Virus record (IMG/VR): IMGVR_UViG_3300026488_000013
Location: 62,001 to 126,000 of that record
DNA length: 64,000 nucleotides
From: a virus
Direction: 5' to 3' (one strand)
This document shows, one piece after another, positions 1,530-54,135 of the stretch (its first letter is position 1; the number at the start of each line of letters is the position of its first letter). The notes under the pieces were generated by a model. That model did not search any database and had not been told where the DNA came from. It was given only the letters and a program-made list of their open reading frames with translations. Made by a program: the position numbers and the translations under genes.

Positions 1530-3745
1530 GTGTTGATTTTGAATGAATTTATTCTATCTAATAGGTCTTTAAAAATAGCGCCGTTTAAAGATATATGGAA
1601 CCCTATGTTTAAAGTTAATAGCTGAGCTATTAATAGTTTGATTTGATTAATTAGTTTTATTATAGAATTAATTAAATCGACTATAGGTTTTAGCACCTTA
1701 TCCGTTAAGATTTTTAGTAAAATGTCTAAAAAACTTTCATTTGTATTTGGAATAACAATATTAAGCCCATATGAAAATGCGAATTTTTTGCACGGGTCAA
1801 AATCTACACAAGCGCCGCCGAAAAAAGTGGCGTCTTTCGATAATTCACTGAGATTTTTCAGTTCTAATAACGGTATTTGTTCTATTAACCAATCTGGTAG
1901 TCTAATATCCAGACCGAAGTTAAAATCTATGTTCAAAGCGAAGTTAGATAAATCTTCTAATAAGCTACATATCACATTGTTATATTCTACCTCTACTGCC
2001 CCAGATAGGGAATGTGAAATTTCTTTAATCGCATTCTTAGGATTCGATACTAAACTGCTTGCTATAGTTTTAATTCTGCTTTTATATTCTAATATGGAAT
2101 TTTTTTTAATATTTATAGGTTTATTAAAAGCAGCAACAATATCATTACTTAACTTTGCCAACTCGTTTTTAATATTAATTATCTGTTCATCTAAATTTGA
2201 AGACACATGAATACTAATATATTTGTCCAAAATACTCTTACTGGAATCTGCCGCAGTGACAGACAATTGATTTCCCAAATTTTTAAATGACTCCGATATA
2301 ACAGAAAGCTTACTTTCTACAGTAGAATTTAATTGTTTTACACTTTTTAACATAACATTTAAAATATCGTCTAATTTTTTATTATCATCACAAGAAATAA
2401 TTTTTCCTTCAGAAATTTTATCTATTGCTTCTTGAATTTCTTTTACCTCTTTTTCAGCTATTTCGTTTAAATTTTCTAATGCGGCCTTTATGGTCTTTGG
2501 GACAATTATCGATGTGTTAAAAATATAATTAAGTTTTTCCTTAACCAGATTTGATAATTCCTTAGCTTCATTCAACTTATGTTTTACATAATTTTGAATA
2601 TTCGGAACTATCGATTCTATTTTATCCATAGTATCCTTTGATAGAGGTTTTAACACATCACCATTTTCCTCTTCATATTTCAGTATATCTTCCTCGGTTA
2701 AATCCTCAAAATCATTATTTCCAGTTATTTTATAATGAAAATATTTTGCGAATTTAATTAAATCATCCGCCCCATTTTCAGTTAACTTTTCCTGTTTCTC
2801 GTCTGGCAACTGGGATTTCAAATATAGATACTGATTTATCTTATCTTTAAGTTCTTGTGTTAATTCGTTTAATTGGTTATTTATATTCTCTTTCCTCTGA
2901 TTTACAGACTGTTCTAAAGATTCGTAGTTTTCACAATACGTTTGAATTGACAATATCAATTCGTTATCTACTACAGAATTTATATTAATAATAATATCAT
3001 TTTTTATATTTGTTATAGCTTCCGGAGATTGTTCCAATAATGTTTTTATATATTCGTCAATATTGTTATATTCCGAGCCGTCTGTCTCGGAGGTATCTGT
3101 AGTAGGTAATTCTACACTTTGGAGTGCAGTGATTGTTGATTTATATATCTGTTGGTCAATATATGTATCTGGCGCCCATTGAATATTATTTAATATTGCA
3201 TTGAGATTTGGGTTTGTTCCTGCTCCGCCTCCGGATACCGGAGAACCCTGGTGTAGTTGAATAGATTTGGTCGATGTTATTTCAACTTCATCTGTCGCCC
3301 GAATTTTAATTTTTTTACCGGAACTAATTTCAACTCCTTTGTCAGATATTTTAATTCCAGATTCTCCGCCAGAGAATTTTATCTCGATAGAATTATTATT
3401 TTCATCAATTTTTATAGAATGGTTTTTTGGAGTTTGGCATATTATATAAGTCCCTTTGTTTATTACACCTTCTTTTCCAAGTTTAAACACATTGCCTTCA
3501 TATTTTCTATCAATATAACCCGAATTAATATTATCATTCTTAAATTTTATTACAACCCTCTGCCCCTCCAACAAGGGAATATATGTTCCGCTATAACTGT
3601 CTATAATATTTTTTTGCGATGCATCATAAACAACAATAGTATCATCCCCGATTAACTCCGGTATCATTACTTCGACTAAACCGTATTTATCTCCTCCATA
3701 AACTTTTTTTATTACACCTATAAACTCTCTATCTCTTAATCGCAT
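1454..3745 (-). CDS. baseplate spike / hub protein with gpV-type OB fold
   Basis: A 763-residue protein. Residues 1-90 look like the OB-fold domain of phage baseplate assembly protein V (gp5/VgrG-type spikes), including an IPLLEGQRVVIKF-like strand. Residues of about 100-170 are short beta repeats with many Ile, Lys and Gly (for example GIKISDKGVEISSGKKIKI), typical of the intertwined beta-helix of a membrane-piercing spike. From about residue 200 the protein changes to long charged helices with coiled-coil character, which is unusually extended for a spike. A lysozyme domain is not evident. It would sit at the centre of the baseplate and puncture the outer membrane. It overlaps the 224-residue gene. 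Confidence 0.8.
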   Translation of the reverse strand: MRLRDREFIGVIKKVYGGDKYGLVEVMIPELIGDDTIVVYDASQKNIIDSYSGTYIPLLEGQRVVIKFKNDNINSGYIDRKYEGNVFKLGKEGVINKGTYIICQTPKNHSIKIDENNNSIEIKFSGGESGIKISDKGVEISSGKKIKIRATDEVEITSTKSIQLHQGSPVSGGGAGTNPNLNAILNNIQWAPDTYIDQQIYKSTITALQSVELPTTDTSETDGSEYNNIDEYIKTLLEQSPEAITNIKNDIIININSVVDNELILSIQTYCENYESLEQSVNQRKENINNQLNELTQELKDKINQYLYLKSQLPDEKQEKLTENGADDLIKFAKYFHYKITGNNDFEDLTEEDILKYEEENGDVLKPLSKDTMDKIESIVPNIQNYVKHKLNEAKELSNLVKEKLNYIFNTSIIVPKTIKAALENLNEIAEKEVKEIQEAIDKISEGKIISCDDNKKLDDILNVMLKSVKQLNSTVESKLSVISESFKNLGNQLSVTAADSSKSILDKYISIHVSSNLDEQIINIKNELAKLSNDIVAAFNKPINIKKNSILEYKSRIKTIASSLVSNPKNAIKEISHSLSGAVEVEYNNVICSLLEDLSNFALNIDFNFGLDIRLPDWLIEQIPLLELKNLSELSKDATFFGGACVDFDPCKKFAFSYGLNIVIPNTNESFLDILLKILTDKVLKPIVDLINSIIKLINQIKLLIAQLLTLNIGFHISLNGAIFKDLLDRINSFKINTCITTKTINLTKLVSSEIENLPKIL

Positions 3746-35593: not shown

Positions 35594-37213
35594 TTAAAGT
35601 TCTGCGTCTGCGTAAATATTTATACCATATATGTTACTAGAATCACTCGGATTAAAAATAACGGCATTGGGTGATATTTCGATAGGCATGAACGCATATC
35701 TCGTTATATCTTCTATAATTTTTACAGATGGTGTCACTCTTTTAACAATTTTCCAGTTATGAATTCTTCTATATACGTTGCCATTATCACCACTACTTCT
35801 TACTATTTCGTAATATCTCATGCATCTTAACAATTGAATATCATAGGGAATTCTTTCAAATTCAGTAGCAAACCATCCTTCTTCTAACTGAACTCTATGT
35901 ATCGCAATATAATCTCCCGCCTGCAATCTTACACCGCCAGATACACTAAATTTCTCTCCTAAATACGTTCCTTCATCTGATACTAAATAATCCGCCACAT
36001 CCGTCATTCCAACAATAACTAATTCAAAACCTAAGTTGTTATCGTTATTAACTGCTGAATTGGTGAACTCTAACAAATTGAATGTAACAGATATTCTTTG
36101 AACAGCATTAGGTGTATCGTAGTTAAATATTCTGATTTGAGATTCTACATTATTAGGGTCAGTTTTGTTTATTAGTGCAACACTATATATGCCCGCTCGA
36201 GTTGACATAAAATCAAATGATAGAGTTAACTTAGACTTCTTCTTGAAATAGGGATAAAGATGTCGTCCTTCAAATCTATACACAAACGTTTTTGCAAATT
36301 CAGAACTATAATCTGGTGTTTTCAAAATTTTATATGTAGCGCCTGTTGCATCTTGAGGTTGAGACTCATACATAAGAGTTAGGACTTCTTCGTCGGTTAA
36401 GGCTCGGTTGAAAATGCGGACTTGGTCAATTAATCCTATAAAAAACCATTGCGAATAGCCGATATGTAATTTATTCTTATGGTCTAGTGTTTTATTATAA
36501 CCATTTTGAGAAAAAACTTTTTTGCTATTTTTAAAAATGGTTACAGAATTAGGCCCAATTGAAATAGATAGATGTATCCATTTACCAATCCAATCTTCTA
36601 CTTTTTCCGAGTATACAACTGTGCCATTGGTTCCATATTGAAAATCTACAGAGCCGTCGAAGAAAGAAACTCGAAAAGTTGTGTTTTGCTCACAGTCTCC
36701 TGTAGTAAATAAACCCTGTCTACTATTTGTATTTGACTGGGAATTGTAAAGCCACATAGAAATTGTAAAAACATTGTTGTTAGGTAGAGGTATATTGTTT
36801 ACAATTATTTTGCTATTTCCATCAAACTTCGCAGCTTGCTCAAACATACCTACATCATACTGCTCTGTTCCATACCATGTTCCATTATACTTTCCAGATA
36901 AATCATTTGCATTTCCATCAAAAGTATATGTTGCTATACAAGAACCATCTCCAAATATATCTAAAGTATTCGCTTTAGAACCAAAATTCGGAACAAAACC
37001 TTTTATTAATAATGCATTTTTTGGGTGGTATGAATACCATCTGTCGGCGGTGTATTTTCCTTCAGCGACTATATTATGTATAATGCCCCTTTGCCATATT
37101 TGAAAATCACCATTAATTATCAAATTCTTAAAATTTTTTAAGTTTGATTGTATATATGGGTGGGCATTCAAACCGTTATTATGTTCTTCTGTTAATATCT
37201 TTTTTCTACTCAT
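35594..37213 (-). CDS. tail fibre protein with LamG-like domain
   Basis: A 539-residue protein. Near residue 30 it has NLIINGDFQIWQRGI followed by YTADRW, a motif typical of phage tail-fibre ends. Residues of about 85-285 form a LamG-like domain (IATYTFDGNANDLSG, FTISMWLYNSQSN, VRIFNRALTDEEVLTLMY). The last 250 residues form another beta-sandwich, with AGDYIAIHRVQLEEGWFATE. Ribosome binding site GAGGTAG. The insertion-like island with an omega-RNA-like structure ends about 20 bases upstream of the start codon. Confidence 0.85.
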   Translation of the reverse strand: MSRKKILTEEHNNGLNAHPYIQSNLKNFKNLIINGDFQIWQRGIIHNIVAEGKYTADRWYSYHPKNALLIKGFVPNFGSKANTLDIFGDGSCIATYTFDGNANDLSGKYNGTWYGTEQYDVGMFEQAAKFDGNSKIIVNNIPLPNNNVFTISMWLYNSQSNTNSRQGLFTTGDCEQNTTFRVSFFDGSVDFQYGTNGTVVYSEKVEDWIGKWIHLSISIGPNSVTIFKNSKKVFSQNGYNKTLDHKNKLHIGYSQWFFIGLIDQVRIFNRALTDEEVLTLMYESQPQDATGATYKILKTPDYSSEFAKTFVYRFEGRHLYPYFKKKSKLTLSFDFMSTRAGIYSVALINKTDPNNVESQIRIFNYDTPNAVQRISVTFNLLEFTNSAVNNDNNLGFELVIVGMTDVADYLVSDEGTYLGEKFSVSGGVRLQAGDYIAIHRVQLEEGWFATEFERIPYDIQLLRCMRYYEIVRSSGDNGNVYRRIHNWKIVKRVTPSVKIIEDITRYAFMPIEISPNAVIFNPSDSSNIYGINIYADAEL

Positions 37214-37235
37214 AATATCTACCTCAAAAACGAGA

Positions 37236-37402
37236 ATAATGACTTTCTCCTCTCACTTTAGTGAGGGGCTTCCTGCTTCATCGTGGGCTAAGCCCACTTC
37301 ATGGGTAGGGCAGACTTTAAGGGGTCTGTCATCCCCTTTAAAAAGACTTAAGCTCTGTAGGTTGCGGGGGATGATTTCCCCCGCAGTTATTCCCCTTCAT
37401 AG
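37236..37402 (-). ncRNA. omega-RNA-like structured RNA (IS200/IS605 right-end type)
   Basis: Read on the minus strand, four G+C-rich hairpins follow the peptidase stop codon: 37364-37384 (GCGGGGG/CCCCCGC), 37319-37338 (AAGGGG/CCCCTT), 37283-37297 (GTGGGC/GCCCAC) and 37249-37268 (CCTCAC/GTGAGAGG). The last one sits in GAAGCCCCTCACTAAAGTG, then AGAGGAGAAAGTCAT, the layout of the conserved 3' hairpin of TnpB omega-RNAs (GAAGCCCC...GGGGAG...TCA). The guide would begin just after TCAT, in the leader of the 539-residue fibre gene. The identification rests on my recall of the motif, not on a search. Confidence 0.55.
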
Positions 37403-37410
37403 CTTAAACC

Positions 37411-38439
37411 TCAAACTTCCAAAATATCGGGCTGTTCCATTAACAATTCCTCCAAAGATAACCCTAGTAAAGATGCATATACCTCTAAATCTTCGCCTTT
37501 AATGGAATCTATTAGTTCCAAATAACTCTGAGAAGGAATTAATTTAAATTCCTCTTCTTTTAAATTTTGCTTTTTACCTCTTTTATAGAAGCGTTCAAAT
37601 TTTAACCTTCTTTTGATTTTTTTGGAAATCCACTTTTCTATTGCATACTTATGAATTTTTAAAGGATTCTTTTCAAATACTTCTTCGACAATATAATCAA
37701 CTTCTTCTGGTTTTATATCATTTATGTGTTTGGGTAGGAAATCCTCTATAAGAAAACTGCCGACCTCTTCCTCGTGTTGAGACTCCTTTTTATCTCCTGG
37801 CGTTCTAAAAGCAAAATCTCTATTCAGAATATGTAGCAACTCGTGAAATAAAGTCCAGATTTGTCTCGCTTTGCTTTCTCCACCGTTAATAAAAATGAAA
37901 TTTTTAGTAGCTAAACCGCTAATTGTAGCCCCGTAAAAATAAAATATAAAAATATTTCTTTTTGCTAAAAACTGCTCTAAAGCTTCTAAATTGATGCTAC
38001 TATTTATTTCCAATCTAACTTCGGTTAAAAAAGCTTCAAGTTTGCCTTTCCATAAGTTTTTTAGGAATTCTAATTCAGGTTCTTTTGCAAAATTCTCACT
38101 GAAAGTTTCTTGGATAGCAACAGCTTTTTTGATTAACAAAATATTATTTCTTATAAATTTCCGACTCTGTTTTCCCCGGGGGGCACGGGCACTAAATAAT
38201 TTCTCTTTGAACAAATAAGCTGGAAATTCTACATAACTTTCCAAGGCTTCTAATACTCCCCATTTGTATTTTTCTATTTCTTTTTTTAAGAGTCTAATAT
38301 CTTGTATCTGAAAAACATGTTCTAAAATTTGTTTTTTAGGTATTTTGAGATATTTATCAACATTATTTAGATATTCCCGGCACGTCTCGTAAATTTCATT
38401 GATTTTTGCTTCATAAGATTGCACTGTGAATTTCCCCAT
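37411..38439 (-). CDS. ImmA/IrrE-type (DUF955-like) zinc metallopeptidase
   Basis: A 342-residue protein. The peptidase core has ISGLATKNFIFINGG, then TLFHELLHIL with the HExxH zinc motif. A downstream EEEVGSFLIEDFLP supplies the likely third acidic ligand. ImmA/IrrE peptidases cleave phage or stress repressors. The N-terminal 150 residues are a charged helical domain without an obvious helix-turn-helix. The C-terminal tail ends LGLSLEELLMEQPDILEV. Codon use is less AT-biased than that of its neighbours, suggesting transfer. It lies in the tail-fibre block, out of functional context, with an omega-RNA-like structure directly after the stop codon. Confidence 0.8.
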   Translation of the reverse strand: MGKFTVQSYEAKINEIYETCREYLNNVDKYLKIPKKQILEHVFQIQDIRLLKKEIEKYKWGVLEALESYVEFPAYLFKEKLFSARAPRGKQSRKFIRNNILLIKKAVAIQETFSENFAKEPELEFLKNLWKGKLEAFLTEVRLEINSSINLEALEQFLAKRNIFIFYFYGATISGLATKNFIFINGGESKARQIWTLFHELLHILNRDFAFRTPGDKKESQHEEEVGSFLIEDFLPKHINDIKPEEVDYIVEEVFEKNPLKIHKYAIEKWISKKIKRRLKFERFYKRGKKQNLKEEEFKLIPSQSYLELIDSIKGEDLEVYASLLGLSLEELLMEQPDILEV

Positions 38440-38588
38440 TAATTCTAATGTTTTACTAATACTAGTTTGAATTTCAAGGTTATAGATAAAGTATTGCTAC
38501 AAGTAATATTTGTTTCTTTATGTGATTCTTATTTTTGGAAACCTTTCCTTTAAAATGCCTGTTTTTCAGTTAAAGAAAAAAAGAAAAA

Positions 38589-51642: not shown

Positions 51643-54111
51643 TTACATAAATATCTTATCAAATGCACTTTCAACATATGTATCTTTTGTTTCAGTTAAC
51701 ATATTTCTAAGTGTCCGCTTTGAAGGTTCGTATAGAAATGCCAATATAGGAGATAATCTTTCAGATGCCTTGGGTAAGGGCAACTTCACAAACTTTGACA
51801 AATCTAATTCGTGGAGCTGGACATTATTATTGTGAATAAAGTATCTTAAGGTTCTATTTATATCGTCAACATCTTGCTCCGTTTTTGATTCGTTAACTTC
51901 TGTATCATTATCCAATTCTATATCTTCTTCTTGTTCTATTTCATTTTCTTCTTTCAAGAACCATAACGCACTCAATATAGTTTCAATCATTACAGATTTA
52001 ATAAGTTCTATCCCCAATAAAGTATCTGTTATTTCATCATATGCAGTAAATATATCTTTATCTATCATTTTGGATTTTATTATTTTTTCAATATTAACAA
52101 TTTTTGTAACAATATCGTCGTTTACCAATTTACCATTTCCTTTTACTTTAAATTTTATTATTCCATTTTCACCTATCTTAACGTCTATTAATTCTATTCT
52201 ATAATCATACCCATTCTCCTCTAGGAATTTGTTTACTTCATTTATCAACTGTTGAGGGGTATATTCTTTATTATGGATTTCGATATACCCGTCATCGGTA
52301 TTAAGTTCGATTTTGTATTTTTCTAATATTTCGTTGGGTATCTTGATTATCGCACGGCCGGATGTATGGAATGTGCGTAATATAAGTTGAGTAAACCTTT
52401 CAGTTATATATTGGATTGATAACATTCCCAGCTGTTTTGATTTTATGGATTCGTATCCTCCGCATTTTTTACATACTTTAAATCCAGGAAGTTTGCAGGT
52501 TATAGGGCTTCTTAATAGTATTTCTTTACCAATTATACTTTCGTAGTTATTTTTTGTTATTAAAATCTCTCTATTTAATTCTTCATCCTTGTAATATCTT
52601 CCTATCAAGGATTTGGCATGAACTTCATTTTTTACCTTTATTTTAAAATATTTATCAGTCCCGCAATCTTCCGTATCTTCATCAAACATTATAAATGATA
52701 GATTGTATAAACCTGTCCTTTGGAGAAATCCAGAGCGTGGCGTTTGAACCATTTTGTCAATCTCTCCTTTTCTTGCACCGTGTGCAGACATAAATAATTC
52801 TTTTTTTGTTAAACCTTTATTTAATGGATGTCTTACCGGTTCGGATTGAACTATATTTTTTGCATCCGCAAGAAAACCTTTCGTATATATTGTCTGTTCA
52901 ATTTGGTCTCTGGACGCTCTGGCCCCCGATTGATATATTTTCCAAAGTTCCGTATCTTTCTTTTCCATTTCTTTAAAAACTATTTCGGAATATTTATTTA
53001 AAAGATATAACCCAAATATTGGCTCGTTCGGAATGTTGTTTAATATCTTTTCCACTTCATCTTTGTTGGGGGTTATATAATCGTCCAACGTTAATTTTGG
53101 TGCAATTTTCGAATACGAAAATTCTGATAATACTAACATTATTTCGTGAAACAAATCTAAATATCTCCTACCAAATTTTTCCAAATCTTTATCTTCATAA
53201 AGTTTTTCTTCCTTGTTTAAATATTCGATTATTACTTCGTTCACAATTCTTACCTTTTTCTTATTTATATCAGTTTCCTTTAGATAAAGCTTTTTATTAA
53301 ACACTCTATAATTCAAGTAAACCAACCCATACGGTAATGTTATATTTTGATTTTTTATTCTTACTGCATACTTTCTTACATCCTCTTTAAACAGAATAAT
53401 TGGGTTGGGTTTAAAATCCTCAATCGAATCTATTTCAATTATTTTTTCAATATATTTCGTTGTCGATAACTGATTTAGTGCATATAAATATTCATGGCGT
53501 AATTTGTGTAAAAAATCATCATTTCTGTGGTATCTCAAGAATGTGGTTGCATGAATTCTCTTATTAAATATGTCTTGTTTTGCTTCAACAGTATTTATTG
53601 CATACTGTGCCATTGTGTCCTGCACAACTATATCATTTGCTACAAATGTGAAATTCTTATCCAGTGTCATGTCATATGCTGTTCCTTTTCCAGAATATCT
53701 TATTTCAATATCAGTTATAGGTATCCGTTTTACTTTATTATTTGGTAAAACTTTGATAAAGTATAGGGATTTCTTAATTTGGAAAGGCATATTTAAAATT
53801 TCTACAGGAGATATTTTTTCAAACTCGTCCAGCTCTATATTATAAACAATCAGCGAGTGGTCTCCAGATGCTTTAAATGGTTGAAATCTATTTCGTTTAT
53901 CTTTTATTTCGTAAAGGTCTAAGTTTTCATGGACAGAGAACTCAATTATTTTTGCTCTTTCAATTTTTCCAGTTTCCATATTAAGCGATTTTGTAAACAT
54001 ATCTTTCATAGGTTTATATTTGATTACTTTGACTCCATCGTTTCTTACATATTCATCAATTTTGATAAAAAATTCTTCTAGAAATTCTTTAACACCAACC
54101 ATTTTCTTCAT
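51643..54111 (-). CDS. rpoC: intein C-fragment fused to RNA polymerase beta' C-terminal part
   Basis: The frame opens at a TTG (54135); the first ATG is at 54111. Counting from the TTG (830 residues), 1-173 are intein and 174-830 are RNAP beta'. Extein landmarks: TMAQYAINTVEAKQD right after the junction (following the catalytic NADFDGD in other beta'), bridge helix SGARASRDQIEQ (403-414), trigger loop AHGARKGEIDKMVQTPRSGF (451-470), EDCGT (C491) with C547, C555 and C558 forming the second Zn site, and FTQLILRTFHTSG (581-593). The beta' N-terminal half with the catalytic Asp triad is not in the window. No Shine-Dalgarno sequence is visible. It is the last gene of its block. Confidence 0.92.
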   Translation of the reverse strand: MKKMVGVKEFLEEFFIKIDEYVRNDGVKVIKYKPMKDMFTKSLNMETGKIERAKIIEFSVHENLDLYEIKDKRNRFQPFKASGDHSLIVYNIELDEFEKISPVEILNMPFQIKKSLYFIKVLPNNKVKRIPITDIEIRYSGKGTAYDMTLDKNFTFVANDIVVQDTMAQYAINTVEAKQDIFNKRIHATTFLRYHRNDDFLHKLRHEYLYALNQLSTTKYIEKIIEIDSIEDFKPNPIILFKEDVRKYAVRIKNQNITLPYGLVYLNYRVFNKKLYLKETDINKKKVRIVNEVIIEYLNKEEKLYEDKDLEKFGRRYLDLFHEIMLVLSEFSYSKIAPKLTLDDYITPNKDEVEKILNNIPNEPIFGLYLLNKYSEIVFKEMEKKDTELWKIYQSGARASRDQIEQTIYTKGFLADAKNIVQSEPVRHPLNKGLTKKELFMSAHGARKGEIDKMVQTPRSGFLQRTGLYNLSFIMFDEDTEDCGTDKYFKIKVKNEVHAKSLIGRYYKDEELNREILITKNNYESIIGKEILLRSPITCKLPGFKVCKKCGGYESIKSKQLGMLSIQYITERFTQLILRTFHTSGRAIIKIPNEILEKYKIELNTDDGYIEIHNKEYTPQQLINEVNKFLEENGYDYRIELIDVKIGENGIIKFKVKGNGKLVNDDIVTKIVNIEKIIKSKMIDKDIFTAYDEITDTLLGIELIKSVMIETILSALWFLKEENEIEQEEDIELDNDTEVNESKTEQDVDDINRTLRYFIHNNNVQLHELDLSKFVKLPLPKASERLSPILAFLYEPSKRTLRNMLTETKDTYVESAFDKIFM

Positions 54112-54135
54112 AATTCTATCATATCCATAAATCAA
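53617..54135 (-). other. split intein C-fragment in RNAP beta' (atypical break after block A)
   Basis: Residues 1-173 read as a Hint domain without its first strand: IIEFSVHENLDLYEIKDK, block B-like KASGDHSLIVYN (His93), block F-like GTAYDMTLDKNFTFVAND (151-168), block G-like IVVQD. Block A with the catalytic Cys or Ser at position 1 is absent. An in-frame TGA lies nine codons before the TTG. The last intein residue is Asp173 instead of Asn, preceded by Gln instead of His. The +1 extein residue is Thr174. There is no endonuclease domain. The missing N-fragment would be very short, as in the atypically split TerL inteins of phages. Confidence 0.85.

Follow-up and report, generated by a model that had tools for sequence, protein, structure and literature searches.

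The guide RNA of TnpB (omega-RNA or reRNA), as described for ISDra2 in the available text of two papers, overlaps the 3′ end of tnpB together with the right end of the element and is built of a terminal hairpin, further stems and a guide derived from the flanking DNA (PMC8612924, PMC10097598). It has been proposed that TnpB with the right-end RNA cleaves the TAM-marked site vacated by an element, which keeps the element (PMC8612924, PMC10278001). Elements with IS605-type ends, no transposase gene, no inverted repeats at their tips and a lost core are described as PATEs from Haloquadratum and Halanaerobium (PMC3119063, PMC7290912). A phage-borne, nuclease-dead TnpB, TldR, is described with a guide RNA beside its gene (PMC13418256). 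Our analysis of a phage genome suggests another arrangement: a hairpin array in this genome is likely to be the worn remnant of a TnpB-less mini-element of the IS200/IS605 type, whose sole payload would be a guide RNA.

The window analysed here is a stretch of 64,000 nucleotides, corresponding to bases 62001-126000 of a virus record of 167,050 bases in total. The array (copy c1) is located on the minus strand at 37398-37239; an M78/ImmA-type gene stops ahead of it at 37411, and a tail-fibre-like gene starts behind it at 37213. Comparison with related sequences suggests the following features:

35594..37213, minus strand: tail-fibre-like gene, downstream neighbour
37219..37238, minus strand: nominal guide, that is flanking DNA; contains the ribosome-binding site of the tail-fibre gene
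37239..37243, minus strand: right-end terminus GTCAT (GTCAC in relatives)
37239..37398, minus strand: copy c1 of a putative guide-RNA (omega-RNA) scaffold, a homologue of the right-end region in family-1 tnpB elements
37249..37268, minus strand: terminal hairpin (stem 4), CCCCTCAC-TAAA-GTGAGAGG, with one mismatch
37283..37297, minus strand: stem 3 (GTGGGC/GCCCAC); a stem-1/pseudoknot segment would sit just 5′ of it and is missing in c1
37309..37330, minus strand: hairpin H2, with a single A.C mismatch in c1
37343..37361, minus strand: downstream arm of the helix outside H1; the other copies have a weaker helix here
37364..37384, minus strand: hairpin H1 (GCGGGGGA/TCCCCCGC), counterpart of a hairpin within the tnpB coding sequence
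37394..37412, minus strand: upstream arm of the helix outside H1, overlapping the peptidase stop codon
37411..38439, minus strand: ImmA/IrrE-type (M78) peptidase gene, upstream neighbour

The initial annotation had noticed a G+C-rich hairpin array at this place, and this is borne out by a G+C content of about 0.48-0.51 across 37220-37400, as compared to about 0.30 in the surrounding region, and by folding of the minus strand, which beats shuffled sequence (RNA z -2.8, DNA z -4.9). The layout GAAGCCCC...GAGAGGAG...GTCAT, which had been likened to the 3′ end of TnpB guide RNAs, is present as well. The covariance search against Rfam that had been proposed as a check returned nothing for the array at the gathering score and nothing relevant at E<=10, yet homology to tnpB right ends was found by sequence comparison.

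Searching the record (C1) with the array reveals two sister copies, both on the minus strand: c2 at C1:156-315 (86% identity, E 8e-50) and c3 at C1:10636-10818 (75% identity, E 8e-34). None of the three copies is preceded by a matching tnpB, and each is located 25-50 nt ahead of a gene start. The full element of c2 spans C1:155-408 (254 bp) and consists of a left end, a predicted promoter (TTGACT-16-TAAAAT), the guide RNA and a right end. A bacterial genome (G004) contains sequences with 93-98% identity to bases 1-43 of the c2 query; at one of its loci (L102) a c2-like left end stands before an intact tnpB with a right end behind it, so that c2 can be said to possess both element ends. A stretch of 450 bases at c2 holds one promoter-like site where shuffles gave 1.2; the promoter of c2 taken alone is therefore no better than chance, and its support comes from conservation across elements and not from the single match. 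Copy c3 directly follows a stop codon, that of a 284-aa gene unrelated to the peptidase of c1. It keeps stem 1, has a changed terminus and is without a left end in our search of the record. G+C-rich palindromes are present upstream of the 284-aa gene (L006:3205-3290, C1:11704-11789) and are possibly another element end; as a candidate left end, they showed no more than a partial match, 24 bases long, to one left end.

Copy c1 is eroded as judged from these comparisons. It has no left end, the sole left end of the record being that of c2, and no promoter comparable to those of the mini-elements described below (best candidate 7/12). Its terminus is altered, and the 24-column segment of stem 1 and the pseudoknot, which c3 and the host mini-elements retain, is absent from c1 and c2. 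Because stem 1 and its pseudoknot partner are absent, c1 is filed here as a homologue or remnant and not as a working guide RNA; the omega-RNA-like structure seen by the initial annotation holds as homology to a TnpB guide RNA and right end, but not as a complete scaffold. With this segment missing and the terminus altered, c1 is probably a poor guide, of which little or no activity would be expected.

Scanning viral contigs with an 18-base core pattern reveals six loci. Two of them (L010 and L014) carry complete tnpB genes of 400 and 412 aa, whose right ends match the copies; c3 and the right end of the L014 gene are 85% identical over 119 b (E 4e-30). Two further loci, L009 and L012 on one contig, belong to another tnpB type and not to the family of c1, and L013 is a match inside a gene that looks like chance. 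At L011 the pattern matches at 3236-3253 on the minus strand, and a right end of similar type (GATGAAGCAGGAAGCCCC...TTCAC) is present with no tnpB frame ending nearby; this is perhaps another TnpB-less copy. Exact RNA-derived patterns gave no match in viral contigs or genomes, and no DNA match was found among annotated phages and plasmids.

With the L010 and L014 proteins as queries, 25 loci were obtained from bacterial and archaeal genomes. The full-length loci (65-84% identity) are labelled Desulfurobacteriaceae, Desulfurobacterium, Thermovibrio or Aquificota MAGs, with the exception of L025 (65%), which is labelled Gammaproteobacteria; two partial TnpB loci (74% and 92%) are labelled Deltaproteobacteria. 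We take the phylum of G001, the genome of locus L017, to be Aquificota. Sequence like c2, mostly its right-end part, is present in at least 31 of the 136 genomes of this phylum, a lower bound, as few candidates were scored per genome. The genome of L025 (G006) is among them, and its Gammaproteobacteria label is therefore probably wrong. In terms of sequence, then, the c1 array is homologous to the guide-RNA and right-end region of real tnpB genes, and better-preserved relatives are found both within this phage and in heat-loving bacteria. The suggestion that a TnpB might be found elsewhere is borne out by matching tnpB genes in viral contigs (L010, L014) and in bacterial genomes.

For the RNA we use the labels stem 1 with a pseudoknot strand, stem 2, stem 3 and terminal stem 4 by analogy to the ISDra2 RNA, in the available description of which a UUUA loop is also named (PMC10097598). 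The loop reads UUUA in the right ends of L010 and L014 and UAAA in c1 and c2. Seven of nine copies were aligned, G004_C53 and G004_C18b being excluded for their nested insertions. Among these seven, 95.1% of 204 cells are paired, as compared to 38-47% when the partners are slid by 1-3 columns. Four pairs have changed on both sides, a number reached in 6 of 500 shuffles when relatedness is ignored. A compensatory change in H1 gives G-C in c1 and A-U in the six other aligned copies. Stem 4 stands outside the pair count owing to a one-base length difference that was misaligned; it was checked copy by copy instead, in 8 of 9 copies. H2 and stem 4 of c1 contain one mismatch each.

Complete TnpB-less mini-elements were read in seven cases: c2, three in G004 (L100, L103, L138) and one each in G006 (L104), G062 (L099) and G120 (L098), the six host copies coming from 4 of 136 genomes. 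No gene stands between left end and RNA in any of the seven. As read by eye from the sequence, all seven have a predicted promoter of the form TTGAYT (TTGACT or TTGATT), a spacer of 15-16 b and TAWAAT (TAAAAT or TATAAT), ending about 5-15 bases before the first hairpin, H1; these promoters look like the elements' own and sigma-70-like. Likewise read by eye, the six mini-elements with a readable left flank and two autonomous elements start after TTTAC/TTAC (G004 C18b is not among them), and the left ends of c2 and the host copies, unlike c1 and c3, are homologous to those of the autonomous elements. The terminus is GTCAC in 7/7. The RNA starts with GGGGAATAAC followed by H1, and two pieces of the tnpB 3′ region are kept while the zinc-ribbon coding stretch between them is missing. 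Three G004 loci (L102, L103, L138) carry short palindromes of about 40-50 b, inserted within hairpin loops of guide-RNA stems or ends, whose edges resemble AACAATAGC...GTTAACGC; these recall the small mobile repeats described as targeting IS605 palindromes in Haloquadratum (PMC3119063).

Within tnpB, the H1 motif is part of the coding sequence and lies about 285 bases short of the gene end. Its helix there, of 10 plus 6-8 pairs, is formed in 16 of 17 distinct segments, the exception being broken by an insertion. Third codon positions of Gly and Ile codons face each other in a first synonymous pair, which is kept in all 15 readable segments (the partner is unreadable in 2 of 17), ten times as a Watson-Crick pair, with a shuffle p of 0.008 that ignores relatedness. 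A second pair, between Gly and Thr codons, is kept in 17/17 segments, as A-T in 7 and as G-C in 10, which corresponds to 5e-5 (1 in 19,448) if the segments are unrelated. Synonymous differences among 14 tnpB genes average 0.47; the value is only 0.20 at H1 and 0.14-0.23 at the right end, with 0.44-0.53 in the zinc-ribbon stretch between the two. Upstream of the right end, no other separate stretch goes below 0.37, and a stretch as low as H1 arose in 12 of 5000 column shuffles. Since the mini-elements keep the two constrained parts without the unconstrained stretch, our reading is that these parts form a bipartite guide RNA contained in tnpB; the synonymous-site signal fits the division into RNA and coding sequence seen in the mini-elements. 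In the available account of ISDra2, cleavage does not require the RNA upstream of stem 1 (PMC10097598), so H1 may serve something else.

Comparison of the copies shows an intact plan of left end, sigma-70-like promoter, bipartite guide RNA and right end, placed after TTTAC/TTAC; the RNA joins the hairpin from within tnpB to the stems of the right end and leaves out the zinc-ribbon coding stretch. A family-1 TnpB in the host may load this RNA in trans, and such use of a resident TnpB is the simplest reading that we can infer. The complex would cleave TTTAC plus flank, which is the vacated or still empty site, and this would favour keeping the mini-element, as has been proposed for autonomous TnpB elements. 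As c1 appears to have lost left end and promoter, any transcript of it would have to come from upstream and carry it at the 3′ end of the peptidase mRNA. The remnant reading of c1 rests on the three copies, the right-end homology, the left end of c2, the seven mini-elements, the pairing and the synonymous signal. Against a mini-element we count that there is no transposase in the record, that Y1 TnpA was found in just 2 of 11 host genomes, in one of them with an internal TGA, and that no mini-element end matches are located beside either of these.

The outer helix around H1 is longer and better paired in c1 than in every other copy, which could mean selection rather than decay. With this helix and its place directly after a stop codon, which c3 shares, c1 might act simply as an RNA structure in the gap between two phage genes, stabilising the peptidase mRNA at its 3′ end or offering a processing site ahead of the tail-fibre mRNA. 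However, there is no terminator-like site at c1, and we consider this reading unlikely. To a more far-reaching interpretation we attach an equally small probability: promoter-driven TnpB-less mini-elements could be a distinct selfish class that carries a streamlined bipartite guide RNA only and parasitises resident TnpB, which in trans would cut chromosomes and phages without the element. If so, phages collecting such elements would turn host TnpB against related phages with empty sites.

Somewhat less probable again is that c1, c2 and c3 are working guide RNAs which the phage uses in trans, steering host or phage TnpB to empty sites in competing phages as an exclusion or homing device. The presence of three copies in this phage, all of them shortly ahead of gene starts (25-50 nt), the intact promoter and ends of c2, the still paired stems of c1 with their compensatory change and a tnpB gene in the record speak for it. 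That gene is divided between the last bases of the record, which encode a TnpB end (L001, C1:166634-167050), and its first 126 bases (L005, C1:1-126), which encode 42 residues 88% identical to the start of a G004 TnpB; the end fragment is an 88% match to the end of the same protein. Most likely the genome is circular and the record ends fall within one second-family tnpB, of which a few hundred bases are missing; the 88% identity points to a related host. Its start codon is located 28 bases beyond c2. The statement that TnpB is lacking is thus correct for the DNA adjoining the array but not for the record, which holds this tnpB of another family. However, its right-end scaffold differs from that of c1-c3, so the record's TnpB is probably not their partner. 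The stem-1/pseudoknot segment that c3 and the host copies keep but c1 and c2 lack, and the changed terminus of c3, also argue against phage use, and no target in another phage was found. Guide targets were scanned for in the window, where the first 18 bases of the nominal guide of c1 have no other match with <=3 mismatches; a match to the tail-fibre leader, as had been predicted, does exist but is automatic, because the guide is flanking DNA. Relatives of the phage sought via the peptidase and an 898-aa protein were not found, and no empty site for c1 was obtained from this search. Of the two outcomes that the initial annotation had named as refuting its reading, only the empty covariance search has thus come about.

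That the peptidase is cargo of an IS605-like element ending with c1, as the initial annotation had considered, is very improbable. The upstream gene is indeed a peptidase of the ImmA/IrrE type on the same strand (Pfam PF06114 at 26 bits with a cut-off of 22, HExxH present as HELLH; PHROG phrog_87 metallo-protease, 1.3e-6). The element starts where this gene ends, and c3 too follows a gene, the unrelated one of 284 aa. However, no left end is present upstream of the peptidase, 0/7 complete mini-elements carry it or any other gene between left end and RNA, and the 136 genomes of the matching phylum yield three weak matches to its C-terminal part and none over the peptidase domain. The claim that its codon use differs from the neighbours is not upheld: in oddness of synonymous codons it ranks 11th of 47 window ORFs, with its two neighbours 10th and 13th. 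It looks like an ordinary phage gene. Elsewhere in this genome, multisubunit RNA polymerase parts are present at 51643-54135 of the window (PHROG RNA polymerase beta subunit) and at L005:3214-3999 (by eye only). Chance hairpins unrelated to TnpB, for which the Rfam search without a match might speak, have a negligible probability, contradicted as they are by the copies in the record, the tnpB right-end homology and the paired-stem statistics.

If the remnant reading of c1 is true, the halves of a TnpB element have been separated in nature, the guide RNA being an independent mobile unit with its nuclease in trans. The mini-elements would also represent a natural deletion experiment on which parts of the tnpB 3′ region are RNA (H1 and the right end) and which only code. 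Stand-alone IscB omega-RNAs in Ktedonobacter are likewise guide RNAs away from their nuclease gene, in another nuclease family; we know of no mini-transposon form of them. In the open-access literature, searched by titles and abstract starts and excluding most subscription papers, no paper on TnpB-less guide-RNA mini-elements was found. With the ISDra2 RNA, as far as its available descriptions go, the mini-elements share the overlap with tnpB 3′ sequence and the right end, the terminal hairpin, the further stems and the flank-derived guide; unlike it, they stand without tnpB and keep an extra H1 from the tnpB coding sequence after loss of the intervening stretch (PMC8612924, PMC10097598). TldR shares with our phage the carriage of a TnpB-type guide RNA, but the TldR loci described encode the protein beside the guide (PMC13418256), whereas no such gene is present beside c1-c3. 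The nearest described relatives appear to be the PATEs, which the mini-elements resemble in their IS605-type ends, lost core and absence of a transposase gene and of tip inverted repeats; PATEs are described in the available text as ends only, whereas the mini-elements add a promoter and a guide-RNA gene and drop the protein-coding stretch (PMC3119063, PMC7290912).
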